DNA of 40,230 bases from Candidatus Sumerlaeota bacterium (GCA_026398515.1 JAPLSS010000446.1:1-40230); one strand, 5' to 3'. Counted from the stretch's first letter, positions 10,008-35,358 are shown. Notes: generated by a model from the letters alone, not told the origin. A program made the numbers and translations.

Positions 10008-10033
10008 GTCGGGTCAGGCTGTGATCGTCGATC

Positions 10034-10702: not shown

Positions 10703-10703
10703 G

Positions 10704-12253: not shown

Positions 12254-12262
12254 ACGGCGTCC

Positions 12263-12469: not shown

Positions 12470-12502
12470 GATAGACTCCTTCTCGCTTTTGGTTTTGCTG
12501 AT

Positions 12503-12733
12503 TCAGAGTGTTCGCACTTCCACGCCTTGCTCAGTCCAGACGTGGACCTTTTCGAGAAATTGCCGACGTTCGCGCGGTTGCGCCCGCTTCTCTGTCGACG
12601 GGCGAGAGATGCCGGTCACACGGCGTGGCCTTGGCTTTGGCTCCGGCCTCGACTTAATTGGCTCCGACTTCGGTCCGCGACGCGGCCCGGCCAAAGTCCT
12701 GCGCCAATGTTGGAATGTTAGTGATCTTCCCAT
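12503..12733 (-). CDS. Small highly basic hypothetical protein
   Basis: MGRSLTFQHWRRTLAGPRRGPKSEPIKSRPEPKPRPRR...; fills the gap between adjacent operon genes; RBS not convincing. Confidence 0.3.
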   Translation of the reverse strand: MGRSLTFQHWRRTLAGPRRGPKSEPIKSRPEPKPRPRRVTGISRPSTEKRAQPRERRQFLEKVHVWTEQGVEVRTL

Positions 12734-12819
12734 GGGGCGGTCTTTGAAGTTACTCCTGAAAGATCCCCCAGGCCGCCGGACGAATCGAACGGCCCAGGGG
12801 CTTTCCCTGCAAGGGACAT

Positions 12820-14471: not shown

Positions 14472-14688
14472 GATTTATCATCTCCTGTTTGGTTTCAACG
14501 CCGTCATGGGCGGCGTTGTCCTTCTCCGCGCTCGCGGGAGGCTTTTCTATCCACGCTGGGCCCCTGCCGGGCGCGGCGCTGTCGAAAATCACCTTCCCGG
14601 TGCCGTCCGTGATGACCTGCCTCAGCGGACGAGGCGTGGGGAACGGGCCATAGGTCTTCCGAACCGATGGTCTCAGCTTCTCTGCCAT
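14464..14688 (-). CDS. Small hypothetical protein
   Basis: 74 aa MAEKLRPSVRKTYGPFPTPRPLRQVITDGTGKVIFDS..., ATG at 14688 preceded by a GAGGAGA RBS; overlaps the next gene. Confidence 0.55.
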   Translation of the reverse strand: MAEKLRPSVRKTYGPFPTPRPLRQVITDGTGKVIFDSAAPGRGPAWIEKPPASAEKDNAAHDGVETKQEMINHV

Positions 14689-14962
14689 TTCATTTTCTCC
14701 TCTCAGATTCCCGGCGCAAAACGCCGTTGTTGCCATTCCCAAACCCCTGATTCCCGCCTGAACCGTGATTTCACGGTAGCAAGGGAAGGGGCAATTTGAG
14801 GTGAAATTCTCTGACGACGAAACATACGGACACGCCTCTTTCTTTGGGCTGGACAGGACCCGTCGATTTCTTGACGCTCGCCAATGCCTTGACGCTTCTG
14901 TGCATCGGTTTACCCACCCAGGGGGGTGCCCATTCGCTATGGAATATGCCGTCTTACCCGCG

Positions 14963-15361
14963 TCATCTTGTCGCACCCCGACGCGCCGATGTAGGTCGGC
15001 CATGACCTGTTCGACGATACCGCCAGCCTGAATCACATGACAGCGCCCTCCGTAGACTCTCGACCGCCACCGGCGGCGCGGGATGGCACCGCGAGCACAG
15101 ACGGCCTGATGGCAAGATCCAGAACGACGTCGACCCGCAGCACGAGCAAGGCGGCAAGGTGTGCATCCGGCCAACCAGATCCCGAATCGCTTCGGCCAAG
15201 CCAGCGTCAAGACAGGCCGATGGCCAGACGAAGATCCCGCCGTTGACCTCACAGAGCACACCGCCAGCGGCATAGACAGCGGCCACAGGATCTGACGCGG
15301 ACGGCGGCGATTGCACTTCCACGGCTTGCATCTGTCGCCTAATCGCTTCGAGAGCGTTCAT
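14963..15361 (-). CDS. Small zinc-ribbon-like hypothetical protein
   Basis: Contains PPCSCCGSTSFWILPSGRLCSRCHP (CxxC...CxxC). Confidence 0.55.
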   Translation of the reverse strand: MNALEAIRRQMQAVEVQSPPSASDPVAAVYAAGGVLCEVNGGIFVWPSACLDAGLAEAIRDLVGRMHTLPPCSCCGSTSFWILPSGRLCSRCHPAPPVAVESLRRALSCDSGWRYRRTGHGRPTSARRGATR

Positions 15362-15491
15362 CGCATCCTCCCCTTTGCTCCATGTCGGATATGACGCATA
15401 TGACGCGACTTTCGTACTTCCCTCTCACATATATATGTGCGCGCGTCCGGGGAGAAGTGTAGTGGCAGCGTCATATACGTCATATGCATCA

Positions 15492-17516: not shown

Positions 17517-17518
17517 CG

Positions 17519-17731
17519 TCAGGCCCTCGCCGGCTGGTCGCTCGTGGACCGGCGCGCCCCGGCCTCGGCGTACTCTTCCAACTCATCTTGTTTATATCTG
17601 ACCGCGCCTTTGAACTTGTGATAAACAGGCCCGCCCCCGCGCGTCCTCCACGACTCCAACGTTGCCTTTGACAACCCAAGGAAGTTCGCGGCCTCCTTGG
17701 TTTTAACATAAGCTTGCAATGTATCCGACAT
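17519..17731 (-). CDS. Excisionase/AlpA-like helix-turn-helix protein
   Basis: 70 aa: VKTKEAANFLGLSKATLESWRTRGGGPVYHKFKGAVRYKQDELEEYAEAG. Confidence 0.88.
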   Translation of the reverse strand: MSDTLQAYVKTKEAANFLGLSKATLESWRTRGGGPVYHKFKGAVRYKQDELEEYAEAGARRSTSDQPARA

Positions 17732-17818
17732 CCTCCGCTCCTTTCATGGCGTGCTAGATAGACTATGCCGCAAGCGGTGGATGGTTGTCAAGCTATTTTT
17801 CAACCTAAGTTAGTATCA

Positions 17819-17844
17819 TTGAAATCGCGTTTAGCCCGTTTCAA
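17819..17844. promoter_or_regulatory. Candidate operator inverted repeat upstream of the HTH gene
   Basis: TTGAAA-N14-TTTCAA within the AT-richer gap between 17731 and 17887. Confidence 0.25.
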
Positions 17845-17886
17845 AGATACAAGCGCGATTCAAGAGAGGGCCGAGGGGAAAACGAC

Positions 17887-18603
17887 TTATCGTCGCGGGG
17901 ATTTGGAAATCAGTCTCTGGACTTCTGCGATGTCATCATGGATCGTCTTTTCAGTTGTCTCACATACGATTTCTTGGAGAACGAACGCGATAATCGCTTC
18001 GCGTTCCGCGGCGTCCTTGACATCGGCCACTTGGAGCGCGTCACTCATGGCGAAGTGAACGCAGTTCGCCGGATAAACCGACGTGGCACGGCCTGACGCG
18101 GCCCGTCTCTGGCCAATGGCCAAGATGAATCGTGATTTGAGCGAATGCAAAATCTCATGGCGCGCCTGGTGGGTCTTGAAAATGCCTCGCTCCTCGAATG
18201 CTCTCAGGAGATGGCCATATCGCTCCCCAATGAACACAGCCGCAAGCCGGCGCGTATCGGGGTCGGGAGGAATGCACGCGAGGGAAAGCCATGCGGAATC
18301 TGTATCCGCGTAGCGGGTCTTGTAGTAATCATAAACCGGCTGGAGGAGTTTCATTTCCCGCCGATACCCTTCCACCTGTTCCTTGGACAGGTCGTTGTCC
18401 CTTTTGGCGCCGCGACAGACGGCCAGAAGCATCAGGCAGTGCACCACTTCATCAGATAGGCATGATTTACTCGCTCGCCTCTGGATCTTCGCGCGAATCG
18501 TCGCCAATGCTTCGGCCTGACAATGGCCAGCAAGTCGTTCGGCAAAGAAGCCTTCGGGATGGTCTATCGGTTCTTGTTTAATTGTGATAAGGGTCTTCAC
18601 GGC
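17887..18603 (-). CDS. Hypothetical protein of mobile element
   Basis: ORF 17887..18621; a GTG start near VKTLITIKQEP is plausible; no recognised domain. Confidence 0.55.
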   Translation of the reverse strand, partial: AVKTLITIKQEPIDHPEGFFAERLAGHCQAEALATIRAKIQRRASKSCLSDEVVHCLMLLAVCRGAKRDNDLSKEQVEGYRREMKLLQPVYDYYKTRYADTDSAWLSLACIPPDPDTRRLAAVFIGERYGHLLRAFEERGIFKTHQARHEILHSLKSRFILAIGQRRAASGRATSVYPANCVHFAMSDALQVADVKDAAEREAIIAFVLQEIVCETTEKTIHDDIAEVQRLISKSPRR

Positions 18604-18730
18604 GCGCCTCCGCTTGCGCAATGTGTTCTCCGCTTTGGGGAAAAGGGGCGTGGCAAGTGCGGAGAGACTCGCCCCGGCGGGTTATAAAGCCGCCGGTCGC
18701 CCCCGATGGTTACACTACCGCTTTCGTGGC

Positions 18731-19801
18731 CTATTGGTCAAGTCCTTTGCCCCTCGCGCCGCCATCAACCCCCGCGTCCAATTTGCCAACGGCGTCCCTC
18801 AATTCCTCCGCGTTCACGCTGACATATATCTGTGTCGTTGCGACGCTTCCATGACCCATCAAAGATCGTATCTCCACAATGTCCACGCCCCGCCGATGCA
18901 ACCCTGTTCCAAAACTATGTCGCAAGGCATGCGGATGGCCCTTGATGGCGGCGATTCCCGCCTTCCTGGCGTGCTTGGCCAGCGCCTTCTCCACCCCCCT
19001 TGGGGAAAGGGTTTTCAGCAAGTAGCTGATGAATAGGCTACCCGTCTTCCCGCCGGGTCGGACTTCTAGGTATTTTTGAAGCGCATCCGACAGCCCCTGA
19101 TTCAACGGGATGGGTCGCTGTTTTCTACCCTTGCCATTTATCAACATCGTGCGATTGACGAAATCCACGTCGTCCACGCCGAGATTGATAAGCTCTTGCA
19201 ACCTCAATCCTCCGAAGGCGAAGGCCGCCAGCATCGCCGCGTCTCTTCGCCCAAGCCACGTTCCCATGTCAGGAATCGAAAGCAACCGATCCAATTCGTC
19301 TTCCGTGAGGTAAACCGGCAGATTGTAGGGTCGTTTTGGATTAGCAAACCCGCGCGCCGGACTGACCGCAAGATGGCCGATGCGGACACCATAGGCGAGG
19401 AAACCTCGAATACTGGATAGGGCGCGGGTTGTGGTGATCGCCCCGCACCCTCGGCGGTGCAGTTTCTCAAGAAACCCCGAAATGGTTTCAGGCCTGATTT
19501 GCTGGACTGTCGGCGCGGGTCCCCCGGATTCTTCCATGAAGGAACGAAATCGGCCCAGATCATAGACATAGGCCGCGATGGTCTTCGGAGACAATCCTTT
19601 GACCGCGGCCAGGTAGCTCTCATATTCGTCAATCGCTTCGGCAAGAGATTTGGGCGGACCCGACTCGACTTCGGCGCCCTTGCCCGCCGCCCGCAGATCC
19701 TCAATGGTTTTGGTCAGGATTTTGATCTGGCGGACGAGCGCCGCCAGCATCGTGTTTTCAGTCTTGCCCTCGCCGGGGCGTTTCGATACGGTTTTCCTCA
19801 C
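18731..19801 (-). CDS. Tyrosine recombinase, XerC/XerD-like
   Basis: FGGLRLQELINLGVDDVD, HPHALRHSFGTGLHRRGVDIVEIRSLMGHGSVATTQIYVSV (R, HxxR, H, Y); N-terminal core-binding SAM-like domain. Confidence 0.92.
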   Translation of the reverse strand: MRKTVSKRPGEGKTENTMLAALVRQIKILTKTIEDLRAAGKGAEVESGPPKSLAEAIDEYESYLAAVKGLSPKTIAAYVYDLGRFRSFMEESGGPAPTVQQIRPETISGFLEKLHRRGCGAITTTRALSSIRGFLAYGVRIGHLAVSPARGFANPKRPYNLPVYLTEDELDRLLSIPDMGTWLGRRDAAMLAAFAFGGLRLQELINLGVDDVDFVNRTMLINGKGRKQRPIPLNQGLSDALQKYLEVRPGGKTGSLFISYLLKTLSPRGVEKALAKHARKAGIAAIKGHPHALRHSFGTGLHRRGVDIVEIRSLMGHGSVATTQIYVSVNAEELRDAVGKLDAGVDGGARGKGLDQ

Positions 19802-19832
19802 GGTCGGACCCTCCTCTTTAGGGTTTGACCCA

Positions 19833-19866
19833 GGCCCCGTTTGGAGTTCTAGCTCCGTTCGGGGCC
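19833..19866. terminator. GC-rich hairpin between the two recombinase genes
   Basis: GGCCCCG...GGAG-TTCTAG-CTCC...CGGGGCC followed on + strand by GCTTTTCT; the T-tract is weak. Confidence 0.3.
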
Positions 19867-19938
19867 GCTTTTCTACCAGCCAAAAGCCGGTAGGGTGTAA
19901 GTGTCAGGCCTCCTCTCTATCGTCGATTGTGGAGGCTC

Positions 19939-21165
19939 TCAGGCCCCTTTTCCCGCCTCTTTCGCCTCTTCCCGCGCGCCCGGCGTGGCGTCCACGATCT
20001 CAGCGCCATCCATTTCCATCATGGCCTTGATGGTCTTCCCTATGAGTTCGGCGGCCGCGTGGAGCGGGTCGTTTTGAAGGTTGGCGTATCGGGCAGTCGT
20101 TTGCGGAACCGTATGGCCCATGAGAGCGCCAATGATCGGCAATCCCAGGCCCAGCCCCGCCGCCGTGCCGCCGTAGACGTGGCGCATATCGTGGATGTTG
20201 AAATCCGCCAGTTTCGCCGCGTCGCAAATCGTCTTCCACGGCTTCGCGGGATTCGTCAACGGCTCCCCCCTCTTCCGGCCTGGAATGACCCAGCCGGACG
20301 GATGGCGTTCGATCCGGTCAAGGACTTCGATGGCCGCTTCGGAGAGTACAACGTCTTTCGGCCCGGTCTTGCTATCCCTGAGATGAAGCGTCTTGTTTGC
20401 CGGGTCGTAATCTTCCCACCGCAGGCCACGGATTTCGCCGCTCCTCATGCCGGTGAACAGCGCCACTCGGAAGAAGTCGATGGACGCCTGGGGGACCAGT
20501 CTCTTTTCTTCATGGTCCTTGAGCGCCCGCGCCAGCCGGATCATCTCCTCGGGGCTGAGGAACCGCCGGCGCGCCGTCTCCCGGAACCGTTTGACGAGCC
20601 GACACGGATTCGAAGCGTCTTTGCGCAGCCCCATGAGCTCGGCCACATTCATCATCTTAGAGAGGCAAGACAAGACACGGTTGGCTGTTATAGGCTTTTC
20701 GGCTATGCTCTCCTGGAGCCGGAGAACGTCGCCCCGGTGAATGGCGTTGACGCGCATCTTCCCCAGCGCCGGCTTGATGTACTTGCTGAGATACCATTCG
20801 TCATCCTTCACGCTCCGGGGCTTCTTGTGGCGCTTGGCGTAATTGTCGATGTAGTGCTGCGCGAATTCCTGAAGGGTCTGGACCTTCCGCGCCTTCTGGC
20901 GTTCGAGGGAAACGTCTTGACCCTGGTCCGCCGCTGAGAGAATCCTCCGCGCCTCCCTCCGCGCCTCTTCCACCGTCATGCGGCCATAGACTCCGACCAG
21001 TGGACGCCGTTGCTGCATTCCAATCCGGTAATAGGCCAGAAACGACCGCTTCCCCTTGGGCGTGACTTTGACCGCGAAGCCCGGCGTCTCGGAATCCCAG
21101 ACGATGATGTCCTTGTCCGCCGGCTTGAGAGAGTCGATCAGGGTCTTCGTGAGTTTCGCTTTCAT
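19939..21165 (-). CDS. Tyrosine integrase with N-terminal arm-binding (DUF4102/P4-integrase-like) domain
   Basis: KLTKTLIDSLKPADKDIIVWDSETPGFAVKVTPKGKRSFLAYYRIG; catalytic FTGMRSGEIRGLRWEDYD, IHDMRHVYGG, GHTVPQTTARYANL. Confidence 0.93.
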   Translation of the reverse strand: MKAKLTKTLIDSLKPADKDIIVWDSETPGFAVKVTPKGKRSFLAYYRIGMQQRRPLVGVYGRMTVEEARREARRILSAADQGQDVSLERQKARKVQTLQEFAQHYIDNYAKRHKKPRSVKDDEWYLSKYIKPALGKMRVNAIHRGDVLRLQESIAEKPITANRVLSCLSKMMNVAELMGLRKDASNPCRLVKRFRETARRRFLSPEEMIRLARALKDHEEKRLVPQASIDFFRVALFTGMRSGEIRGLRWEDYDPANKTLHLRDSKTGPKDVVLSEAAIEVLDRIERHPSGWVIPGRKRGEPLTNPAKPWKTICDAAKLADFNIHDMRHVYGGTAAGLGLGLPIIGALMGHTVPQTTARYANLQNDPLHAAAELIGKTIKAMMEMDGAEIVDATPGAREEAKEAGKGA

Positions 21166-23017: not shown

Positions 23018-24076
23018 ATGATGAAGGCGCGAAATACTCTTCTATTCCTGGCGCTGACCGCTAGCGTCGCCGTGCAAGCCCAGACCCCGTTTCGAGAGCA
23101 ACTGAATGCCTCGCCCTTCAAGATCTCCTATGAGTGCTATGTTGACAACAACTGGGAGATCTTCGTCGTGAAGGCCGACGGGTCGAACCCCGTGAATCTC
23201 ACGAATACGGCCGATGAGCACGAACACTATCCGCAAGTGTCGCCCGACGGCTCAAAGATCTGCTTCCTGGCGGATCAGGGGGAAGGTCGAGAGGTCATCC
23301 GTAGCCTGTATGTCATGGATGCGGACGGCAAGAACCGGACGAAACTGGCGGCGCGAGCGCGCGAGCCATTCTGGGCCCCGGCTGGCAAGACCATTGGCTA
23401 TCTGCCGCAGGAGTACCCCAAGTTCAGCGTGACCGATTACTATACGGAGGGGATGGCGTTCTATGATCTGACGACCGGCAAGGCAGAACCGCACCCGAAC
23501 AGTGCAAACTTGCATCACTTGTACTGCCCGTCCTATTCCAGGAACGGCAAGTGGATCGTGGCGACCGTGCACGCCGGCATGGGCGTGGATCACGGAACCT
23601 TGCTGATCGAAGCGCACGGCGACAAGGTGATCAACCTGAACATCCCTGGTTGCCGCCCCTGCCTGAGCCCGGACGGCAAACAAATCGCCTGGGGCGCTGG
23701 CGATCACGAGATTGCGGTCGCGCCGATCGACCTGGACGCGGACGAGCCGGCCGTTGGGCCGCGCCGCCTCCGCATCAAGAGCGACAAGGAAACCAAGATC
23801 TATCACGTGGACTGGTCCCCGGACAGCCGGTTTCTCTGCTTCAGCCGCGGGCCCGACGGAAAAGGCGACCCGAGCAAGCCGGGGACTTTTCAGGCGGCGT
23901 GCGAGATCGTGGGTGTATATGCGGCGGGCTGGGATCTCTGCGCCGTTTCCGCGGAACGGGAGGGCGTTTTCGATCTCAACAGCGCCACCGACGCCGATGT
24001 CCTCCCGTTGACTTCGGATGGGCGCAGCAACAAGGAACCTGCGTGGTTTTTGCCCAACGGACCGCCAAAGGAGTAA
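23018..24076 (+). CDS. Secreted TolB/PD40-type beta-propeller protein
   Basis: NNWEIFVVKADGSNPVNLTNTADEHEHYPQVSPDGSKICFLAD; further WSPDSRFLCFSR blades. Confidence 0.85.
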   Translation: MMKARNTLLFLALTASVAVQAQTPFREQLNASPFKISYECYVDNNWEIFVVKADGSNPVNLTNTADEHEHYPQVSPDGSKICFLADQGEGREVIRSLYVMDADGKNRTKLAARAREPFWAPAGKTIGYLPQEYPKFSVTDYYTEGMAFYDLTTGKAEPHPNSANLHHLYCPSYSRNGKWIVATVHAGMGVDHGTLLIEAHGDKVINLNIPGCRPCLSPDGKQIAWGAGDHEIAVAPIDLDADEPAVGPRRLRIKSDKETKIYHVDWSPDSRFLCFSRGPDGKGDPSKPGTFQAACEIVGVYAAGWDLCAVSAEREGVFDLNSATDADVLPLTSDGRSNKEPAWFLPNGPPKE

Positions 24077-24079
24077 AAA

Positions 24080-24985
24080 ATGCCGCCCATTCGTTATTCT
24101 TTGCTGGCGGCCGCTGTGGCTATAATGGCCTGCAACAAGCCCGGTCAGGATTCGCGGGGAGCGGAGGAGTCCAATTCCGTCCGCGTCACTGAGATTATGA
24201 CCAAGTCGGGCGTCGTCATGGTCTACGTGCCCGGCGGCGAATTCCTGATGGGAGATGAGCACGGCAATCCGGATGAATCTCCGGCCCACAAGATGACGGT
24301 CAGCGGTTTTCTCATGGACAAATTCGAGGCGACGCACGAGATGTTCAAGAAGGCGCAGCTGCCTGACCCCTCGCACTGGCAGGACAACCCGAATCTGCCC
24401 GTCGAGCGCGTGCGCTGGCGCGACGCCAAGCAATACTGCAACGAACGCTCGCTCCAGGAGGGGCTGGCCCCTTGTTACAATGAGAAAACGGCCGATTGGG
24501 ACTGCGACCACTCGGCTAACGGCTATCGCCTGCCCACCGAGGCGGAGTGGGAATACGCCTGCCGGGCGGGAACCGATGGCCCTTACGATTTCGGCGCGCC
24601 GGACCCGCTGCGCCTTTACGCCTGGTTCGCGGACAATGCTGACCAGAAGACGCATCCGGCGGGCCAGAAGAGACCGAACCGCTGGGGATTGCATGACATG
24701 TACGGCAACGTCTCCGAGTGGTGCGAGGATGTCTATGACCCCTCCTACTACAAGGACAGTCCGGCCGTCGACCCGCACGGCCCCCCGAACCCCGGCAAGG
24801 ATGTCCGGCGCGTAATCCGCGGCGGCAGCTGGAAAGCGAGCGCGGACATGTGCCGGGCCACGTTCCGACAGGGAGAACGGACCGGCGATACGGACGCCTG
24901 TTTCCTCACCGACTTCTGCGGTTTTCGCTGCGTTCGGCGAGTCACGATGGAGGAACTCAAGCGCCTCAGGACCGCGGCGAGATAA
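24080..24985 (+). CDS. SUMF1/FGE-sulfatase-domain putative lipoprotein
   Basis: Lipobox-like AIMACNKP; MVYVPGGEFLMGDEHGNPDESPAH, YRLPTEAEWEYACRAGT, WGLHDMYGNVSEWCEDVY, RVIRGGSW, CGFRCVR. Confidence 0.92.
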   Translation: MPPIRYSLLAAAVAIMACNKPGQDSRGAEESNSVRVTEIMTKSGVVMVYVPGGEFLMGDEHGNPDESPAHKMTVSGFLMDKFEATHEMFKKAQLPDPSHWQDNPNLPVERVRWRDAKQYCNERSLQEGLAPCYNEKTADWDCDHSANGYRLPTEAEWEYACRAGTDGPYDFGAPDPLRLYAWFADNADQKTHPAGQKRPNRWGLHDMYGNVSEWCEDVYDPSYYKDSPAVDPHGPPNPGKDVRRVIRGGSWKASADMCRATFRQGERTGDTDACFLTDFCGFRCVRRVTMEELKRLRTAAR

Positions 24986-25081
24986 AACACCCAGATTCAA
25001 GTCCTGGGACGTGCCGAGCGCCAGCGAGTCGAGTCTGCTTTCAGCGTTCGAACATCGCCTCTCACAAGGTGATCTGTTCTC

Positions 25082-25918
25082 ATGAATGCCGCAAGACTTC
25101 TACTATGGGCGGCCCTCTTGTCGCTCCCCTCCATCCTTCCGGGCGCCGCGCCGAAGGCCGGCCGGATCGTCTTTTCCAGCAACAGATCGGGCGCCTGGCG
25201 CATCTGGGAGGTCAAGGCCGATGGGTCGGACCTAAAACAGATCATCAAACAGGACGGCGACGAGAGCGACGTCGACCCGATGTTCAGCCCCGACGGGAAG
25301 TCCATTTTGTTCAGTTCCACCCGCGGCGGGTCGACGGGCGTTTGGCGGATGGCGACGGATGGCTCCACGTCCGAGAGGATCTGCGACGGGGACCAAGCCG
25401 AATGGTCGCCGGACGGCTCCAGGATCGCGTTTCGCCGCAACGAGCGCGTTTTCACTCGTGATCTCAACGGCGGCCAGGAGAAGTCCGTCAGCCCCGAGGA
25501 TTGGCCGCATTGTTCGGGGCCGGCCTGGAGTCCGGACGGCAAATCCATCGCCTTCGCCGCGCGGTGGGAAGGCGGCAACGGGATCTACGTGGCGCCAGCA
25601 GAAGGCGGCAAGCCTGCCAAGGTCTATGATCAGGAGGGCGCTTGCGAACCCCATTGGTCCCCGGATGGGGCGCGCATCGTGTATGAGACAGAGACTCACA
25701 TTTGCACGATCAATCCGGATGGGACGAAGAATCGTCTCGTCACCTATTTCGGAGGCGTGCAGCGCTATGCCCGCTACAGCCCCGACGGGACGATGCTCGT
25801 TTTCTGTCAGGGCGTCTCGGAGCAAGGCCCCTGGGATATTTATGTCATTCCCGCAGCCGGCGGCACGCCGGAGAAACTCGTGGTAGGCAATTCGAATATG
25901 TATCCTCATTGGAGATGA
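25082..25918 (+). CDS. Secreted TolB/PD40-type beta-propeller protein
   Basis: GRIVFSSNRSGAWRIWEVKADGSDLKQI...PMFSPDGKSILFSSTRGG; repeated WSPDG blades. Confidence 0.88.
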   Translation: MNAARLLLWAALLSLPSILPGAAPKAGRIVFSSNRSGAWRIWEVKADGSDLKQIIKQDGDESDVDPMFSPDGKSILFSSTRGGSTGVWRMATDGSTSERICDGDQAEWSPDGSRIAFRRNERVFTRDLNGGQEKSVSPEDWPHCSGPAWSPDGKSIAFAARWEGGNGIYVAPAEGGKPAKVYDQEGACEPHWSPDGARIVYETETHICTINPDGTKNRLVTYFGGVQRYARYSPDGTMLVFCQGVSEQGPWDIYVIPAAGGTPEKLVVGNSNMYPHWR

Positions 25919-27537
25919 AAGCGTCGGCAAGTATGCCACATAACGTTGCATTACTCCGGTGTCTTACCTTTCTTCTTGCCAGCCTTGTGGTTGCACCGGT
26001 ATTCGCGCAGGACGAAACCCCATTCACCCAACTATTCGACACCCGCGTCTCTTCCGCTCAACCCCTTGGGGATGACGTGGTCGCCCTTCGAACGGGCTGG
26101 CAACTGGTCCCCGAGGACAACATCGATCACCGGTTCGCCGGGGACGCTGTGTTGTTGAACGACAAACTGGAGGTCATCCTAAGGGATCAGGGGCGCGGGG
26201 CGGAGGTGTACTCGAAAGGCCCCAGGGGCCTCGAGCGGCGAATTGCCATTAGTCACGCCGGCGTGGATTCGGCAATGGGCCAGCCGCTCGACGCCCTCAA
26301 GATCTTTGAGAACAACTCCGGCGCGGTGATGGTGGAAGCGTCGTTCAAAGACGCCAAGCCGGCGGCGCTGCGCTTTCGGCTCACCACCGGCGAATCGATT
26401 CTGGAGATTCGCCCCGGCGAAGGCGCCGCGTTTGTCACTGTTGAATCCAAGACCCGGTATGTGATTGTCCCCGATTTCTTCGGCGATGACCTGGTCTATG
26501 GCGCGGAATCCTTCACGGGCCGCGGCCTTCCGGCGGAGAACTTCTGGCTGAGTCTCCTCGATGGCGGCGACGCCATCGTGATGACGGTCTGCCAATCGAG
26601 TGAACAGAGAGTCTGGCTGGATGAAGCCAAAAGCCAGGCCTCTGGAGCCGACGAGCGCATCTGTTCCACGCGAATCGATTGCATCAAAGACAAGAGCATC
26701 TGGCTGGCCTTCCTCGAATCTCCCGGCATCTGGCGCGCCGCAAATGCGCCGGACAAGACCGAGCCGCCGTTCCCCGCGAAGTGGCGATGCAGCTTCGTTC
26801 GCGCGAATGGCGTCGCCGATTCGTGGGACGCCGGAGGCTCCATTCCTGACCAGGCCATGGGCCTTCACAAGGGACCGCTCATTACGTATCCGATCGACCG
26901 CGTCAGTTCGACTCCGCTTACGGCCGTCTGCCCCACGGATGTCATGCGGAACACCTTGGGCGTTGGCCCTTGTCAGTACATTTTGGCGGTTGAAGGTTTG
27001 TCGGCGGAAGGCGATCCTACGCCCAACAATGTGATGAACTGGGTGGAGAGGGAGTTCGAGCAGAACAAAGAGACGAAGGCCGCTGACGATATCAAGGCAC
27101 GGTTGGAGCAAATGTCCGAGCATGTGGCTGAAGCCCACGCACGAATCGAGCGATACGCGGAATTTGCCGACCAGATCCGGAGCCAGTTGACCGACAAACC
27201 AGGCGCGGAGCCGTTCGTCTCGATCATAGATGACCTCGACCGGTTCGTCGCCGCGGGCCAGACCCCGGCGGCCTCGCCGGAGAGTGCCAGGGAGTTAGCG
27301 GCCGAGGTGGCGGCGCTCATAGGCAAAGAGGATGCCCTTCTTGCCTGCCAGCGCCTCGGCGAGCCATTGCGATCCATCGGCGCGATCCAGGATGGCGCGC
27401 TCGCGAGGTGCCGCACGGCGGTCAGGCGCCTGAGGGAAGAGAGCCGCACGATTGCCGTCAAGCAGTCGCGAGATGCGGCCCTCGCGCAAGAGGTCGAGGG
27501 CCGAGCGCACGAAATGCTACAGAAATCCGAGAGGTGA
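25915..27537 (+). CDS. Exported protein of unrecognised family, paralog A
   Basis: ATGA overlap with 25082..25918; signal peptide ...LTFLLASLVVAPVFAQDE; shares GDAVLLNDxLxxxLRxxxxGAEVYS, FF.DD.V and VxRNTLGVGPCxYxLxVEG with the next gene. Confidence 0.85.
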   Translation: MKASASMPHNVALLRCLTFLLASLVVAPVFAQDETPFTQLFDTRVSSAQPLGDDVVALRTGWQLVPEDNIDHRFAGDAVLLNDKLEVILRDQGRGAEVYSKGPRGLERRIAISHAGVDSAMGQPLDALKIFENNSGAVMVEASFKDAKPAALRFRLTTGESILEIRPGEGAAFVTVESKTRYVIVPDFFGDDLVYGAESFTGRGLPAENFWLSLLDGGDAIVMTVCQSSEQRVWLDEAKSQASGADERICSTRIDCIKDKSIWLAFLESPGIWRAANAPDKTEPPFPAKWRCSFVRANGVADSWDAGGSIPDQAMGLHKGPLITYPIDRVSSTPLTAVCPTDVMRNTLGVGPCQYILAVEGLSAEGDPTPNNVMNWVEREFEQNKETKAADDIKARLEQMSEHVAEAHARIERYAEFADQIRSQLTDKPGAEPFVSIIDDLDRFVAAGQTPAASPESARELAAEVAALIGKEDALLACQRLGEPLRSIGAIQDGALARCRTAVRRLREESRTIAVKQSRDAALAQEVEGRAHEMLQKSER

Positions 27538-27541
27538 AGTG

Positions 27542-29857
27542 ATGAAGACCCGGCGGATTCCGATTCTGACGTGCCTGGCCGCTCTTGCTTCCATCCCGGC
27601 CGCTTGGGCGGCGGGTGAAGCTTCCACGAATTCCTTCGGCAACCCCAGCTTCGAGTTGGGCAGAGATGGCTGGCAATTGGACAAAGCCGGAAAGACGGAG
27701 TGCCAGCTGGTCGTAGATGACAAGGACGCCGCGGACGGTCAGTACAGCGCTCTGCTGACGATGGGTCCGGCCGAAGAGTGGGGCGCGCAGTTCGGCCAGT
27801 CCTTTCCCGCCGGCGATATGGGGAAGACCTACACCTTCGCCGTCTTCGCCAAGAGTGTGAAAGGCCCCGTCGAGGTCACCCTTCAGGTTGAGCGTAGCGC
27901 CGAGCCATGCGACAGAGCCGGCGAGAGCGAGCCGATGCATCTGACGGAGGAATGGCAGGAATTCCACCTGACGTTCACCGTCGAGCAGAAATTCCATCAG
28001 GGCTGGTTTTCTTATGTTAGCTGCACTCAGCCGAACGCCCAGTTCCGCGTCGATATGTATCGGCTTTATGAAGGACAATATAAACCCTATAAGGAAATCG
28101 CCGAACAACAGGCCGCCGTGGCCGCCGTGCGCTTGTTCGACTCCGGCGCGCGATCGTCGGCCCCGCTCACCGCGGAAGACCTAACGAACAGGACCGGCTG
28201 GACCGAGATCGGCCAAGAGGATGTCGCGCACAAATTCAAAGGAGACGCAGTTCTCCTGAATGACCGGCTCGCCTGCGTCCTTCGCCGGGGCGCGCACGGC
28301 GCCGAGGTTTACTCGATCGGCTCCGATGCCGCGACGCCGCGAGCGGTGCTGTCTCCACTAGGCGCTGCAATGGCCGACAAACTTACATCATTCACGATTG
28401 TAGAGAACAATCCCGGCGCCGCGGCGGCCGATGTAGTGTTCGCGACAGGCGATAAAAAGACTCTCACCCTGCGCTATCAGCTAAGAGTGGGTCAGCCATT
28501 CGTTCAAACCGAGGCGCGGGCGGAGGCGTCGGGTCTGCGTGTTGAGGCCCCGTGCCGCTTCGCGGTGATGCTGGACTTCTTCTCGGACGACATCGTGATC
28601 GATGGCGCCGCATTGCCCGTCGCACAGGCCGAGTTGCCCAGCGACAATATCGTCCTTCACCTGGCGCCCGATGGTCAGGCGATCGTGATGACGGTAGTGA
28701 AAACGAGCGAGGAGGACATCCGAGTCTCACTTTCCGGCGACGGCGACGAGCGAAGGATCGACAGCACCGAACTGCGCTATGGCAAAGATGGGAAGATCTG
28801 GGTGGGCGTCATGACGGGCGCGGCGATCTGGCATGAACAAGAGATCGCTCCCGAGCAAGCCGGCCAGGTCGTCCGCATGGATTGGAAGCCGCCGTTCCCC
28901 GCGCAGTGGCGCGTCGATTGGCGGCGGGTAGAGAATGCGACGGACAGTTGGGAAATGATCACCGAACGGCCGGACCGCAGTTATGCCAAACCCGGCTTGT
29001 TCGGCGAGCCGGACACGATCCCCAAGAACCGAAAACGATGGACCACTGTGCTGGGGGACTTTAGATACCCGTGCTGGCTGGATAAGAATGGCCTTGCCTT
29101 CCTCCAACCACTCAAGTCGGACGCGCTTCGTTTCCAGGGACCGGCGATCGTCTACCCGATCAATCGGATCTCTGCCACCGCGCTCGATACCTTCACCGTA
29201 GTCGACATCGTGCGGAACACGCTCGGCGTCGGGCCGTGCGAGTATGTTCTAGATGTCGAGGGACAGCAGTCCGAATACAAAGGCATGGCCACGTGCGCCG
29301 TGAGAGACGCGCTGAATCCGATCTACGAGGCCAAGCAGCAAGTGGAACGCAAGGCCGAGGTCGAGAAAGTCCTCGAAGACCTGATGATCTTCATCCGACA
29401 TATACGCGGGCGTATTGAAAGTTATGTGACCTTCGGACACGAAACCTTCGCCTATTTGGAAGAGCAGAAGAATGCCCATCCAGAACTATCCGAGCCGCTG
29501 GCCGAATTAGAGGCTCTTGCACGCCGGATTGACGATAAGTACGCCGAGCGGCAGGAAAAGATCAAGACGCCGGACTTCGTCGCGCAAACGGTGGAGGATT
29601 TCCGCAAGACAGTGCTGAATGACCAAGGCGACGATGCAGCGGCGCAGTGCAAGCTGTTCACGGAGAGATGGGTGGATATCGGAGGAAACCAGGACGAACT
29701 CGTGGGCGAATGCCGCTGGGCGGCGAAGATGCTCCGCCAACGCGCCGGGCTGATGATGGCCGCCGACCCGCGATTGGCCGACGTTGCCAAGAAGATTCGG
29801 CAGCGCAGCCAGGTCGTGCTGCGGAATCCAGCCAACCACGAAAGCGCGGAACACTAA
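27542..29857 (+). CDS. Exported protein of unrecognised family, paralog B, with extra N-terminal CBM-like domain
   Basis: ATG 27542, signal peptide MKTRRIPILTCLAALASIPAAWA; NSFGNPSFELGRDGWQL CBM-like opening; rest paralogous to 25915..27537. Confidence 0.85.
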   Translation: MKTRRIPILTCLAALASIPAAWAAGEASTNSFGNPSFELGRDGWQLDKAGKTECQLVVDDKDAADGQYSALLTMGPAEEWGAQFGQSFPAGDMGKTYTFAVFAKSVKGPVEVTLQVERSAEPCDRAGESEPMHLTEEWQEFHLTFTVEQKFHQGWFSYVSCTQPNAQFRVDMYRLYEGQYKPYKEIAEQQAAVAAVRLFDSGARSSAPLTAEDLTNRTGWTEIGQEDVAHKFKGDAVLLNDRLACVLRRGAHGAEVYSIGSDAATPRAVLSPLGAAMADKLTSFTIVENNPGAAAADVVFATGDKKTLTLRYQLRVGQPFVQTEARAEASGLRVEAPCRFAVMLDFFSDDIVIDGAALPVAQAELPSDNIVLHLAPDGQAIVMTVVKTSEEDIRVSLSGDGDERRIDSTELRYGKDGKIWVGVMTGAAIWHEQEIAPEQAGQVVRMDWKPPFPAQWRVDWRRVENATDSWEMITERPDRSYAKPGLFGEPDTIPKNRKRWTTVLGDFRYPCWLDKNGLAFLQPLKSDALRFQGPAIVYPINRISATALDTFTVVDIVRNTLGVGPCEYVLDVEGQQSEYKGMATCAVRDALNPIYEAKQQVERKAEVEKVLEDLMIFIRHIRGRIESYVTFGHETFAYLEEQKNAHPELSEPLAELEALARRIDDKYAERQEKIKTPDFVAQTVEDFRKTVLNDQGDDAAAQCKLFTERWVDIGGNQDELVGECRWAAKMLRQRAGLMMAADPRLADVAKKIRQRSQVVLRNPANHESAEH

Positions 29858-29876
29858 GAGAAGGAAGAGATCTGTC

Positions 29877-30782
29877 GTGTCCAATCGCATACCTATCATA
29901 TTGCGTTGGCGGACTCCGCTAGCGTTTGCCTTGGCAGCGCTCTTGATCCTCAGTTGCGGGCCGAGCGGCAAGTTGGCCGACACATCCCTAGCTTCCGCGC
30001 CCAAAATCATCGTAACGACGACCGGTGTCGAAATGGCTCTTCTTCCCGAAGGCGAATTCCTCATGGGGGACGAAAGCGGCGACGCCGATGAGAAACCCGC
30101 GCACAAGTCACAGGTCGGCGCCTTCTGCATGGATACGCGCGAGGTCACACAGAAGGCCTATGAGAGTTTGATGGAGAAGAACCCTTCCAAGTCCAAAGGC
30201 CCTGACAAACCGGTCGAGCAGGTGGACTGGGTCCGAGCGGCGCTCTACTGCAACATGCGTTCTCTCAAAGAGGGCCTGACTCCCTGCTACGACACAAGGA
30301 CCCTGGCCTGCAATTTCGACGCCGCCGGATACCGGCTTCCCACCGAAGCGGAATGGGAATATGCCTGCCGCGCTGGCGCCCGCACGAAGTATTCCTTCGG
30401 CGACGATCCCGCCCGGCTCGGGAGTTGCGCCTGGTTCAAGGCCAATGCCGACCAGACCACGCATCCCGTTGCCCAGAAGGCGCCCAATGCCTGGGGCCTG
30501 TACGACATGCATGGGAATGTGGCGGAATGGTGCAACGACGTTTATGGCGATAGCTTCTACCAGAACGCCGAAGGCAAGGACCCTCGCGGGCCGTCCTCGG
30601 GGGACAAACGCGTCCTGCGAGGGGGCGGCTGGAACTCCAACGCCGATGGTTGCCGATCCTCGGCGCGCACCAGTGAAAACGCGCGGTTCGCCGACGCCTG
30701 CTTTGGGTCGGATTCCTATGGCTTCCGCTGCGTGCGAAGAGCGCCGCCGCAGGAGCGGCAGACGCAGGCACAGTCACAGTGA
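29877..30782 (+). CDS. SUMF1/FGE-sulfatase-domain putative lipoprotein (paralog of 24080..24985)
   Basis: GTG 29877 after AAGGAAGAG; lipobox LLILSCGPS; MALLPEGEFLMGDESGDADEKPAHKSQ, YRLPTEAEWEYACRAG, WGLYDMHGNVAEWCNDVYG, RVLRGGGW, YGFRCVR. Confidence 0.92.
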   Translation: MSNRIPIILRWRTPLAFALAALLILSCGPSGKLADTSLASAPKIIVTTTGVEMALLPEGEFLMGDESGDADEKPAHKSQVGAFCMDTREVTQKAYESLMEKNPSKSKGPDKPVEQVDWVRAALYCNMRSLKEGLTPCYDTRTLACNFDAAGYRLPTEAEWEYACRAGARTKYSFGDDPARLGSCAWFKANADQTTHPVAQKAPNAWGLYDMHGNVAEWCNDVYGDSFYQNAEGKDPRGPSSGDKRVLRGGGWNSNADGCRSSARTSENARFADACFGSDSYGFRCVRRAPPQERQTQAQSQ

Positions 30783-30823: not shown

Positions 30824-32239
30824 ATGCTCTTCCACACCTGGCCATTCCTCCTATTCCTGCTCGTCGTTCTGCCGGTCTTCTACTCGTTGCGAAATACCCC
30901 GCTGTGGCTGCCTTGGCTCACCGCCGCCTCGTACTTCTTCTACGCTTGGTCGAATTCCTATGCCCTTTTGGTTGTATTATATATCACGGCTTTCGATTTC
31001 ATTCTCGTCGCGCGGATCGATCGGTCGCCCGCCGAAAGCCGCGGTCGTGGAATCTGGTTTGCGATCGCCCTTGTGGGCAACCTCTTTCCCCTGCTGTTCT
31101 TCAAATACGCCCGCTTCGTCGCCGAGAACCTTAACGCGCTGTTCTCCTGCTTGCATGTCGCGCTGAGATTGCCCGATCCATCGGGGCTCATGCCGTTCGG
31201 CCTCCCTTATCTCCTTCCCGCCGGCATTTCGTTCTTCACCTTCCAATCGCTGAGCTACATCCTTGATGTCTACCTCGGCAAGGCGCCCCGCGAGCGCAAC
31301 TTGCTCCGATTCGCCAATTTCGTCTGCTTCTTTCCCCAAGTGATGGCCGGCCCCATCGAGCGCCCTGGACATCTGTTGCCACAGTTTCGTCAATTCCCGG
31401 CGATCCGCCTGCGAAACATCACCGACGGCTTGTCGCTTTTCCTTCTCGGGCTGTTCAAGAAGGTGGCGCTGGCCAGCTACCTGTCGTTGTACGTCGACCG
31501 TGTATACGACAATCCCAGCGTGTGCGGCGCCCCGGATCTGATCCTGGCGACGATCGCATTCGCCTGGCAGATCTACTTCGACTTCAGCGGATACACCGAC
31601 ATGGCCCGCGGCGTCGCTGAACTCCTGGGCTTCCGTCTCGTGCTGAACTTCAACAATCCCTACCTGGCGACCGGCTTGGGCGATTTCTGGCGTCGTTGGC
31701 ACATCTCCTTTTCACGATGGATCTTGGATTATATCTTCATGCCGCTCCAGATGCTCTGGCGGGAGCGGCGATTCGCCGGCACGGCGGCCGCGCTGGTGAT
31801 CACCTTTCTCGTCTCCGGCATTTGGCACGGCGCGGCATGGACCTTTGTCATTTGGGGCGCCCTTCATGGCGTCGGCCTCGCGGCGACGTATCAGATGGAG
31901 CGGTCCGCCTGGTACCGCAAGCGCGTGCCATCCGTCCTCAAGCAGGCGGGGGTCTTCGCCTATGTTTGTTTCACCTGGGTATTCTTCCGAGCCAACTCGC
32001 TCGACGATGCGGTGTTGATTATTCGGCGCATCTTCACCGCGGCCTGGCAGGGCCCGCAAGTGCCCGCGCTGATGCTTGGTTCGGTCATCCTGGTGTGGCT
32101 ATATCAGTATTTGTATGAATCGAGATGGCGCGCGATCCTTGAGACCGGCGTCGTCCGCCTGGGGCTGGCGGCCCTGATGGCGCTTAGTCTTTGCCTCTGC
32201 TCCTCGGGCGGCGGCAGCTTTATCTACTTCCGGTTCTAA
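30824..32239 (+). CDS. MBOAT-family O-acyltransferase (AlgI/DltB-like)
   Basis: Polytopic; YFDFSGYTDMARGVAELLGF, DFWRRWHISFSRWILDYIFMPL, SGIWHGAAWTFVIWGALHG (active-site His region). Confidence 0.95.
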   Translation: MLFHTWPFLLFLLVVLPVFYSLRNTPLWLPWLTAASYFFYAWSNSYALLVVLYITAFDFILVARIDRSPAESRGRGIWFAIALVGNLFPLLFFKYARFVAENLNALFSCLHVALRLPDPSGLMPFGLPYLLPAGISFFTFQSLSYILDVYLGKAPRERNLLRFANFVCFFPQVMAGPIERPGHLLPQFRQFPAIRLRNITDGLSLFLLGLFKKVALASYLSLYVDRVYDNPSVCGAPDLILATIAFAWQIYFDFSGYTDMARGVAELLGFRLVLNFNNPYLATGLGDFWRRWHISFSRWILDYIFMPLQMLWRERRFAGTAAALVITFLVSGIWHGAAWTFVIWGALHGVGLAATYQMERSAWYRKRVPSVLKQAGVFAYVCFTWVFFRANSLDDAVLIIRRIFTAAWQGPQVPALMLGSVILVWLYQYLYESRWRAILETGVVRLGLAALMALSLCLCSSGGGSFIYFRF

Positions 32240-32246
32240 CTCCGCC

Positions 32247-33440
32247 ATGGTAAACGAATCGCCAAACGCGAAGACAAATGGACCTCTGGCCGCTCCCTCG
32301 GTGGCGGAAACGCTTTTTGCCTCGAACGCCTTCCGACTCAACGGCCGGCAATGGCTCGCGGCATCTGCGATTCTATTGGCGGTCACGTTGTTGACTTCGC
32401 CCCTTTGGGAGCGAATCGAGCGCTACGAGACCGGTCCCGATTATCGCATCCCCTATGACCTCAGCAATGACTACTGGCTCTATGAACGAATGCTCCGGCA
32501 AACCTCCGCCCCCAATCGAATCGTCGTTCTCGGCGATTCTGTTGTGTGGGGAGAGTATGTCTTGCCGGACGGCGCCTTGTCGCATTTCCTGAATCAGCAG
32601 GCCGGAGTGTCCGATCGTTACATCAACGGCGGGTTGAACGGTTCTTTCCCGCTGGCGCTGGAGGGGTTGATCGACTACTATGGACAAGCGTTGCGCCACT
32701 GTCGGGTGATCGTGCATTGCAATGTGCTGTGGATGACGAGCCCGAAAGCGGATCTCAGCACGGAGAAGGAAGAGCGATTCAACCACTCCGGACTTGTGCC
32801 ACAGTTTTGCCCGCGCATTCCTTGTTACAAGGCCGACGCTGACGAACGCCTCGGAGCTGTCGTTGAGCGTGAGTTTGGTTTCGTGCAATGGGTGAAGCAC
32901 CTGCAGAGCGCCTATTTTGAGCGGATGAGCATTCCGAAGTGGACATTGGAGGAGGATAACGGGACGCCGCCGCGGCGCCCCAACCTCTGGCGGAATCCGC
33001 TCCGGCAAATCACGCTAACGGTTCCCGAGCCTCCTCCTGAGGATCCCCAACGCGGTCCGACGAGTTCGCGACATAAGCCGTGGTCGGAGGATGGGGAAGG
33101 CGCGGCCCGTTTTGACTGGGTTCCTCTGGGTTCGTCGCTCCAATGGCAAGCCTTCCAGCGTTTGATTGGCAGGCTCCAGGACGGCGGCAATGATGTCCTG
33201 GTGGTCGTGGGGCCTTTCAACGAACATATGATGGCGACGGAGAACCGGCCGGCGTATTCGGAGATTCGGAACGGCATCGCGGCTTGGCTCACGGAGCACA
33301 ACATACTCCATGTGGTTCCGGAGGCTTTGCCCAGCGCGCTCTACGCCGACGCCAGCCATCCCCTCACCGAAGGCTATGAGTTGCTGGCGCAGCGGCTCTA
33401 CGAAAACCCGGATTTCCAGAGGTGGGTCCGAGGAGAGTGA
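32247..33440 (+). CDS. Membrane-anchored SGNH/GDSL-like protein (DltD/AlgX-J-like role)
   Basis: N-terminal TM WLAASAILLAVTLLTSPLW; IVVLGDSVVWGEYVLPDG (GDS block) and YADASHPLTEGYELLA (DxxH block). Confidence 0.85.
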   Translation: MVNESPNAKTNGPLAAPSVAETLFASNAFRLNGRQWLAASAILLAVTLLTSPLWERIERYETGPDYRIPYDLSNDYWLYERMLRQTSAPNRIVVLGDSVVWGEYVLPDGALSHFLNQQAGVSDRYINGGLNGSFPLALEGLIDYYGQALRHCRVIVHCNVLWMTSPKADLSTEKEERFNHSGLVPQFCPRIPCYKADADERLGAVVEREFGFVQWVKHLQSAYFERMSIPKWTLEEDNGTPPRRPNLWRNPLRQITLTVPEPPPEDPQRGPTSSRHKPWSEDGEGAARFDWVPLGSSLQWQAFQRLIGRLQDGGNDVLVVVGPFNEHMMATENRPAYSEIRNGIAAWLTEHNILHVVPEALPSALYADASHPLTEGYELLAQRLYENPDFQRWVRGE

Positions 33441-33478
33441 ATCCGCTCTTATGACTTCTCGAAGGGAGGGGCTGAAGC

Positions 33479-35098
33479 ATGCTGATCAGGAATAACCAAT
33501 TCAACGTAGGCCACATTTGCACTTGCTTGCAGTGTGAACTTGGCCATTCAGGGAAGCTCGCCATGAAGTGGCTCGGCCCCCGAGGCGAGAAGGCGTCGTT
33601 CACTTTCGAGGATCTGAATCAGCAGAGTTCGCGCTTTGCCAACATTCTCGGGAGCCTTGGCTTTGCGCCCGGCGACGTATTTTTCATCTTTCTGCCAAAG
33701 ATCCCGGAGGTGTACTTCGCCTTTCTGGGCACCCTGAAAGCCCGGGTCATCGTGGGGACGCTGTTCTCCAACTTCGGCGACGAGGCGTTGCTCGACCGGT
33801 TGGGCGATTGCCGGGCCAAAGGCGTGCTCACCCGGAAGAGTTACTTGAAGAAACTGTTGCGCATTCGTGACAAGCTTCCGGCGCTTCGGCGCATCCTGCT
33901 GGTTGATGTGGATGATCATCCGGCTGGCGACATACTTAGCTTGCCGAAGCTACTGGCCGAGTCGTCCCCGCAGTTTGCCACGCCGTTGACGCCTCCGGAG
34001 ACTCCGTCCGTGCTTCATTACACGTCCGGTTCCACCGGCAAACCTAAGGGCGCGCTGCATCGGCATCGGAGCGTGGCGCTGCAACATCGAACAGCCCGCG
34101 ACGTTCTCTGTCTTCAACCGGACGATCGGTATTGGTGCACGGCAGACCATGGATGGGTGACCGGAACCTCCTATGGCATCATCGGTCCGTGGAGCCTGGG
34201 CATCTCTCAGATTCACTATGGCGGAGTTTTCGATCCCGCACGGTGGTCTGAAGTCCTCCAGGACGAACGTATCACCGTCTGGTACACGGCGCCAACCGCC
34301 TTGCGCATGTTGATGCGGCAGGAGCCGGCCTTCTTCTCCCGATATGATCTCTCGCGCTTGCGCCACATTTTTAGCGTGGGCGAGCCGTTGAATCCGGAGA
34401 TCGTGCATTGGGGACGCAAGATCTTCGGCAAGGAGATTCATGACACCTGGTGGCAGACAGAAACGGGGGCGATCCTGATAGCCAATCGGCCGGGGCTGCC
34501 CGTCAGACCTGGCTCCATGGGCCGGCCGCTCGACGGGATTGAGGCCGGAATTCTCGCCGATGACGGCGCGCCTCTTCCCAACAATGAACAAGGAAACCTG
34601 TGCCTCAGGCCGGGATGGGATTCCATGTTCATCGCCTATTATGGCCACGACGACATCTATCAGCAGAAGTTCCGCCAGGGATGGTATTGGACGGGAGACA
34701 CCGCGCGCCGCGACGATGAAGGATACTATTGGTTCATGGGCCGGAGCGATGACGTCATCAATACCGCAGGCCATTTGGTCAGTCCATTCGAGGTCGAGAG
34801 CGCGTTGCTCGAATTGGAGGCCATCGCCGAATCAGGCGTCATTGCGGCGCCGGACGCTCTGTTGTTTGAAAAGGTGGTGGCGTACGTGGCATTGCGGGAG
34901 GGCTTCGTTTGGGACGGTGATTTGGAACTCACTGCGCGTCTGCACGTGTCGAACCGGGTCTCGACCATGGCCACGCCCCAGGAGTTCTTTGTGGTTGATA
35001 GCATTCCCAAGACCAAGAGCGGCAAAATCATGCGGCGGGTTCTCAAGGCCCGCTATCTCGGGATGGATGCCGGGGATGTTAGCGCCCTGGAGATATAG
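33479..35098 (+). CDS. AMP-forming acyl ligase (acetyl-CoA-synthetase-like)
   Basis: LHYTSGSTGKPKGALH, HDTWWQTETGAIL, YWTGDTARRDDEGYYWFMGRSDDVINTAGH, IPKTKSGKIMRRVLKA. Confidence 0.95.
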   Translation: MLIRNNQFNVGHICTCLQCELGHSGKLAMKWLGPRGEKASFTFEDLNQQSSRFANILGSLGFAPGDVFFIFLPKIPEVYFAFLGTLKARVIVGTLFSNFGDEALLDRLGDCRAKGVLTRKSYLKKLLRIRDKLPALRRILLVDVDDHPAGDILSLPKLLAESSPQFATPLTPPETPSVLHYTSGSTGKPKGALHRHRSVALQHRTARDVLCLQPDDRYWCTADHGWVTGTSYGIIGPWSLGISQIHYGGVFDPARWSEVLQDERITVWYTAPTALRMLMRQEPAFFSRYDLSRLRHIFSVGEPLNPEIVHWGRKIFGKEIHDTWWQTETGAILIANRPGLPVRPGSMGRPLDGIEAGILADDGAPLPNNEQGNLCLRPGWDSMFIAYYGHDDIYQQKFRQGWYWTGDTARRDDEGYYWFMGRSDDVINTAGHLVSPFEVESALLELEAIAESGVIAAPDALLFEKVVAYVALREGFVWDGDLELTARLHVSNRVSTMATPQEFFVVDSIPKTKSGKIMRRVLKARYLGMDAGDVSALEI

Positions 35099-35115
35099 AA
35101 CGCCATGAATGGAAT

Positions 35116-35358
35116 GTGGACACTATGACGACAATGGAGAGACTGACGGAGATCTTCCGCAGGGTGTTCGCGGATGAGGAAATTCACCTCCGTCCCGAGA
35201 TGACGGCCGGCGACGTGGATGGCTGGGACTCGCTGTCGCACGTCAACCTGATTCTCGCGGTGGAGAGAGGCTTCGGCATTCGTTTTCAGCAGAAGGAATT
35301 GCTGGCGTTTCGAAATGTGGGAGATCTGTTGGAAAGCATCGAGAAGAAACTGACTTGA
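35116..35358 (+). CDS. Stand-alone acyl carrier protein
   Basis: 80 aa; DVDGWDSLSHVNLILAVERGFGIRFQQKELLAFRNVGDLLESIEKKL with phosphopantetheine Ser in GWDSLSH. Confidence 0.93.
   Translation: MDTMTTMERLTEIFRRVFADEEIHLRPEMTAGDVDGWDSLSHVNLILAVERGFGIRFQQKELLAFRNVGDLLESIEKKLT

Follow-up and report, generated by a model that had tools for sequence, protein, structure and literature searches.

A Dlt-type gene set with an acetate-type ligase in Candidatus Sumerlaeota: a candidate carrier-fed route of extracytoplasmic acylation

The Four-Gene Cassette

The window, which is the whole stretch of 40,230 nucleotides that was analysed (Candidatus Sumerlaeota bacterium, GCA_026398515.1, JAPLSS010000446.1:1-40230), carries a Dlt-type gene set in which an MBOAT, an SGNH protein, an AMP ligase and a carrier protein are encoded together by four ORFs on the + strand with intergenic gaps of 7, 38 and 17 bp. 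These genes and gaps are exactly where an earlier sequence-only reading, made by a model, had placed them. Its assignment of DltB-, DltD-, DltA- and DltC-like roles is borne out by Pfam matches to MBOAT, AMP-binding and PP-binding and by a DltD-like fold of the second protein.

The first gene (30824..32239, + strand) encodes an MBOAT acyltransferase of 471 aa (PF03062, E 7e-22), the one MBOAT above the family cut-off in the window genome. The protein aligns with the DltB structure 6bug (E 7e-31), its His335 corresponding to DltB His336. Its C-terminus reads FIYFRF (32219..32236, + strand), which the sequence-only reading had passed over and which is an FxYxxF acyl-shuttle motif with Tyr468; both PatAB/AlgI-type features, the C-terminal FxYxxF and the catalytic His, are present. 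PatA auto-acetylates the Tyr of its C-terminal FxYxxF motif, and a supported model has this motif passing the acetyl group to the SGNH partner (Anderson et al., PMC12148441). In the Dlt system the motif is supplied by DltX (PMC12148441). Because it is fused to the MBOAT here, no DltX would be needed. Since the protein ends in FIYFRF and the exact C-terminal FxYxxF recurs in 83 of 84 MBOAT relatives, the MBOAT is, judged by its motifs, PatA/AlgI-like in architecture and Dlt-like in its gene neighbours.

The second gene (32247..33440, + strand) encodes a DltD-like SGNH acyltransferase of 397 aa with an N-terminal membrane helix. The protein has no Pfam match of its own, and 13 of its 57 relatives weakly match Lipase_GDSL_2. 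The GDS serine (Ser98) and the Asp368 and His371 of a DxxH motif are invariant in the 57 relatives. A profile search of the PDB for the family returned nothing useful and the fold search alone worked: the predicted model (mean pLDDT 94) has DltD as its best PDB hits in Foldseek (6pfx and 6o93), the top solved-structure match being Enterococcus DltD (E 5e-6). The window protein thus combines the GDS Ser and the DxxH motif with a predicted SGNH fold, and it has no match to the ALGX family.

The third gene (33479..35098, + strand) encodes an AMP-forming acetate-type ligase of 539 aa, AcsA-short-derived, with AMP-binding and AMP-binding_C domains, and both motifs claimed for it by the sequence-only reading, HDTWWQTETG and KTKSGKIMRR, were found. 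The fourth gene (35116..35358, + strand) encodes an acyl/peptidyl carrier protein of 80 aa, whose PP-binding match (PF00550) lies just above the cut-off (21.8 against 20.8 bits) and whose phosphopantetheine (Ppant) serine is Ser39 in a DSL motif. Because homologous carriers begin with MTT or MTP, the ATG at 35125, which leaves a gap of 26 bp, is a more likely start than the GTG. The carrier homologues are 62-76% identical and always occur together with the ligase. A search for Ppant transferase genes found them in 7 of 8 genomes, all but G944, and the window genome has other carrier genes too.

The Surrounding Locus

The cassette sits in a larger TolB-EXP-EXP-FGE-MBOAT-SGNH locus, a setting that goes beyond the sequence-only reading. 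All of its genes lie on the + strand. A first module comprises an exported TolB-like PD40 beta-propeller protein (23018..24076, with homologues in 50 of 86 loci) and a first FGE-domain lipoprotein (24080..24985; PF03781, E 2e-46). It is followed by another exported TolB-like PD40 beta-propeller protein (25082..25918; PD40, E 3e-31; homologues in 46 of 86 loci), an exported protein of the EXP family (25702..27537, likely start 25915), a second exported EXP protein with a CBM_4_9 domain (27452..29857, likely start 27542), and an FGE-domain (SUMF1-like) lipoprotein directly upstream of the MBOAT (29784..30782; PF03781, E 7e-49). The last belongs to the conserved core, and 70 of 86 loci have an FGE-domain protein close to their MBOAT. 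Alignment to solved FGEs leaves the window protein at most one of the two active-site Cys, and its PDB matches include the PorK/GldK lipoproteins; it may be structural. The first EXP protein has homologues in the cassette loci. Its predicted model (pLDDT 87.5) shows a beta supersandwich and a helical bundle, and the fold search gave only weak supersandwich matches; the YidC periplasmic domain and GH81 were matched weakly. The main domain of the family has no Pfam family.

Together with loci L073-L152, the region 23018-30782 of the window points to a widespread, uncharacterised locus of TolB/PD40 propeller, FGE lipoprotein, MBOAT and SGNH protein in many phyla, frequently extended by a second TolB-EXP-EXP-FGE module. 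A segment at 8917-21165, directly upstream of the cluster, looks like a mobile element when judged from translations, with integrase-like ORFs at 18731-19801 and 19939-21165 and a primase-like ORF at 15492-17516.

Conservation of the Loci

Among 84,980 species genomes, the closest 80 MBOAT loci show a widespread MBOAT-SGNH unit, to which an FGE-domain protein is usually added; the phyla include Verrucomicrobiota, Planctomycetota, Armatimonadota, Omnitrophota and Hydrogenedentota. The ligase and carrier are found in only 3 of these 80. The core in most relatives is TolB-FGE-MBOAT-SGNH, to which the ligase and carrier are an add-on.

The same ligase clade occurs in eight relatives, and ligase, carrier and MBOAT stand together in all nine loci (9/9), in at least four arrangements. 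The gene order of G001, a genome of the same class as the window, is identical. In L074, L075, L198 and L199 the ligase and carrier genes lie on the opposite strand and are convergent, and L200 has the order FGE-ACP-MBOAT-LIG-SGNH. The cassettes of L073, L194 and L195 are split over contigs, their adjacency to the MBOAT being inferred. L257 (Planctomycetota) has the order AlgJ-AlgI-AlgX-LIG-ACP, with two proteins that match PF16822 ALGX. The sequence-only reading had looked to gene order for conservation: linkage is kept throughout, but strict order is common to one same-class genome only. Strict order was accordingly set aside as a test, gene content with rearrangement being the better one.

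A chance neighbourhood, in which the ligase and carrier serve another pathway beside the MBOAT-SGNH pair, would agree with the fact that most MBOAT relatives lack both genes. It is refuted by the 9/9 linkage, which spans Verrucomicrobiota, Planctomycetota and the window's class, survives rearrangement and extends over two distantly related MBOAT backgrounds. Around the 43 next-nearest AcsA-short ligase genes, flanks of 1.5 kb (shorter in a few) contain no carrier gene.

The Ligase and Its CoA-Site Residues

The best NCBIfam model of the window ligase is PRK04319, acetate--CoA ligase, at 676 bits. The AcsA equivalog NF003313 has a cut-off of 729 bits; five scanned cassette ligases score 655-698, below it, and two neighbouring AcsA proteins pass at 765 and 854 bits. 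In the tree the cassette ligases group together as a single clade (100/100) whose stem length is 0.65, beside the AcsA-short group. The eight further loci have ligases 69-76% identical to that of the window, AcsA-short proteins 45-50%, and long Acs about 37-39%. On the point that the sequence-only reading had itself marked as decisive, clustering with housekeeping enzymes, the ligase is thus set apart by a separate, fully supported clade and a score below the equivalog cut-off. A fully housekeeping ligase was rejected on the tree, the curated cut-off and the linkage.

A classical D-alanylation (Dlt) operon is largely refuted and retains hardly any credibility. The same four roles and the DltD-like SGNH fold recall it, and TIGR04091 DltB is the only NCBIfam model that matches the window MBOAT (E 5e-47). 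This match, however, reaches 161 bits against a curated cut-off of 375, the MBOAT carries the shuttle motif in its own chain, and the ligase is of the acetate type, DltA being absent from its best 25 NCBIfam models. On these three grounds the difference from classic D-alanylation proposed by the sequence-only reading stands.

The acetate pocket of Salmonella Acs, which we take to be V310, T311, V386 and W414, has V, T, V and W at the equivalent positions of the window ligase, which also keeps the same catalytic Lys as AcsA-short. From these residues acetate is predicted as the substrate. The equivalent of W414 is F in 5 of 8 aligned cassette ligases and also in the partial ligase of L194, so that the acyl group may differ from acetate in some loci. 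Carrier-fed acylation with a non-acetate group such as propionyl or a different short acyl, in the way that true Dlt systems employ D-alanine, draws on this gate Phe and on loci elsewhere whose carrier-linked MBOATs sit with different AMP ligases, FAAL-like in L038. Nevertheless, the gate Trp and the three other pocket residues of the window ligase are those of acetate-specific Acs, and the same ligase appears in the AlgI-type operon of L257, a known O-acetylation type, which makes a non-acetate group quite improbable here.

In Acs, CoA phosphates are contacted by R191 and R584, the latter touching the 3'-phosphate, and the thioester conformation is supported by R526 (Ingram-Smith et al., PMC10455477). 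The R584 equivalent is Ser in 8 of 8 cassette ligases (Ser491 in the window) and R or K in 44 of 44 AcsA-short proteins. The R526 equivalent is Leu in 8 of 8 cassette ligases, and Val stands in place of two other conserved basic residues, at the R134 and K560 positions. A protein-borne Ppant arm has no 3'-phosphate, and loss of R584 therefore fits an ACP acceptor. As proof of non-CoA use it is weakened, since among 32 long-type Acs from other bacteria 18 also lack R584, although nearly all keep R191. AcsA-short proteins lack the R191 loop.

The main alternative is an ordinary acetyl-CoA synthetase that supplies local acetyl-CoA to an MBOAT fed by CoA like PatA/AlgI, the ACP being unrelated or regulatory. 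The PRK04319 match and the intact acetate pocket are as it would have them, and in the window genome (93% complete) no second full-length Acs was found. In at least two cassette genomes, G194 and G195, there is a separate Acs, which counts against it, as do the lost CoA arginines of the cassette ligases and the ACP, which accompanies every ligase of this clade and none of the AcsA relatives. With no further full-length Acs in its genome, the window ligase might have a double role and also make acetyl-CoA.

A Putative Docking Helix in Place of the PLGG Turn

Eight ACP-linked MBOATs were compared with 23 carrier-less sisters at the docking site. At fourteen positions the ACP-linked MBOATs share a fixed residue that none of the sisters has, and 10 of these positions lie at residues 290-323. 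Residues 302-317 (31727..31774, + strand) form a putative carrier-docking horizontal helix that replaces the PLGG turn; the ACP-linked MBOATs read DYIFMPLQMLWRERRF, whereas the carrier-less sisters read DYVYIPLGGNR. In DltB, M302, V305, I306, M309 and K312 contact DltC (PMC11035591). In the 6bug alignment the DltB helix residues align onto residues 306-315 of the window MBOAT, and DltC Met36 and Val39 (Ser35 +1 and +4) correspond to Leu40 and Val43 of the window carrier. By this alignment the hydrophobic helix putatively replaces the PLGG turn exactly at the position where DltC docks on DltB. Such a change is absent from the carrier-less relatives, among which the ACP-linked clade is nested in the tree, and this argues further against CoA feeding, which we regard as unlikely. 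Feeding of the MBOAT by the carrier, as proposed by the sequence-only reading, draws support from the docking-helix and CoA-arginine signatures, which both point to it.

In the first MBOAT tree L038 fell inside the window clade, and once the docking block was removed it lay far away; its MBOAT shares 74% identity with the window MBOAT at residues 288-349 and 25-36% elsewhere. Because L038 leaves the clade without the motif columns, its block is best read as convergence or recombination at the docking site. The nearest MBOATs of L257 are carrier-less and AlgI-type, and its docking-site change is therefore a separate one. L038 is a cluster of its own kind (L038:8695-13045), with a FAAL-like fatty acyl-AMP ligase, an ACP, an MBOAT and an SGNH-like gene, and perhaps serves carrier-fed long-chain acylation of a surface polymer.

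Carrier Genes and the GG Pair across MBOATs

A total of 266 MBOATs were scored for GG in the PLGG turn and for a carrier gene within 4.5 kb. Over all sets a carrier lies nearby for 0/243 GG MBOATs and 17/23 non-GG MBOATs; no carrier was found near the other six, and one MBOAT counted as positive, that of L066, has its carrier 3.7 kb away. The discovery set gave 0/111 and 11/13, with the carrier of L073 on another contig. Outside the discovery set the counts are 0/132 and 6/10. In the Planctomycetota sample no GG MBOAT has a carrier nearby (0/82). Named plasmids gave 0/11 for GG and 1/1 for non-GG, the latter from a Metabacillus cassette that also encodes an ACP and an AMP ligase, and relatives from many phyla, fetched once the rule was fixed, gave 0/33 and 2/5 (two further rows without a readable motif were left out of the counts). 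Among named controls the figures are 0/6 and 3/4. N. gonorrhoeae PatA has GG and Listeria DltB lacks it; the non-GG controls with a carrier are Listeria DltB and the Klebsiella and Sulfitobacter cassettes, and the fourth, carrier-less, is a lone plasmid dltB.

Fisher p-values on these counts ignore relatedness. A tree built without the motif columns implies at least five losses of GG (5-6 independent ones), and a carrier accompanies the loss in 3-4 of 5 independent pairs and never the reverse. With so few origins the pairwise sign test is not significant (p 0.125-0.25). The broader proposition is that several CoA-to-carrier donor switches occurred in bacterial MBOAT-SGNH acyltransferases, each replacing the PLGG turn by a hydrophobic docking helix and leaving the donor readable from the sequence, and that here the partner ligase was converted in parallel from acetyl-CoA synthetase to acetyl-ACP synthetase. 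We hold this to be evenly balanced.

Several loci of this survey have features of their own. Another MBOAT of G001 (L035, G001:C133) has a carrier-type block (YVFMPLNMAWREW) with no carrier nearby, and may share the cassette carrier in trans. On a plasmid of Metabacillus sp. B2-18 (L341:3126-7454), ACP, AMP ligase and MBOAT are followed by a hypothetical gene, and the MBOAT has a non-PLGG docking block; as a named Bacillota isolate it offers a practical bench system. A plasmid of Klebsiella electrica (L399) carries a Dlt-like operon (DltD, MBOAT, AMP-binding, ACP) flanked by insertion sequences in a Gram-negative host.

Proposed Mechanism and Relation to Known Systems

We consider the cassette to be a carrier-protein-fed extracytoplasmic acylation system, most likely for O-acetylation, with a probability of roughly 70%. 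The ligase would adenylate acetate with ATP and load the acetyl group onto the phosphopantetheine of ACP Ser39 rather than onto CoA. Acetyl-ACP would then dock at the DltB-like horizontal helix (302-317), its Ppant arm reaching His335 through a membrane tunnel. By analogy with the published DltBD and PatAB mechanisms, the acetyl group would pass to Tyr468 in the FxYxxF motif of the MBOAT itself and from there to Ser98 of the DltD-like SGNH protein. Finally, the SGNH protein would hand it on to an acceptor outside the cytoplasm. This is probably a glycan or glycoconjugate of the cell surface that the neighbouring TolB, EXP and FGE proteins handle.

The cassette has the AMP ligase, carrier, MBOAT and DltD-fold SGNH protein of the Dlt pathway, a DltB-like sequence at the putative docking helix and the expected acyl-Tyr to acyl-Ser relay. 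It differs in that the ligase is AcsA-type, no D-Ala ligase being present, and in that the shuttle Tyr is in the MBOAT and not on DltX. With PatA/PatB it shares the C-terminal FxYxxF of the MBOAT, an SGNH partner and, as predicted, the acetyl group; the donor of PatA is acetyl-CoA and its turn reads PLGG, whereas the cassette has a dedicated ligase and carrier and the turn is replaced. The AlgI/AlgJ/AlgX system is linked through L257, where the same ligase and carrier stand in an AlgJ-AlgI-AlgX-like operon, but in other loci the AlgI-type relatives are carrier-less and show PLGG, and the window SGNH protein has no ALGX match. From AcsA-short (PRK04319), which it resembles in overall identity, acetate pocket and catalytic Lys, the cassette ligase departs in its sub-cut-off score, in the Ser in place of the Arg/Lys for the CoA 3'-phosphate, and in its constant carrier gene.

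A 2025 paper describes the MBOAT/SGNH pathways other than Dlt as lacking a carrier. The nine cassette loci are exceptions to this rule, each with a ligase and carrier that apparently feed a PatA-like MBOAT whose shuttle motif is part of the same chain. The MBOAT-SGNH relay and carrier feeding, the latter in Dlt, are already known. In the literature searched, most subscription journals lying outside its scope, we found no description of an MBOAT-SGNH pair served by an acetate ligase through a carrier, nor of the combination with a fused shuttle motif.

If the acetyl-ACP reading and the donor signature are right, surface O-acetylation would have an acetyl-ACP branch, and a short sequence signature would predict the donor used by a bacterial MBOAT.
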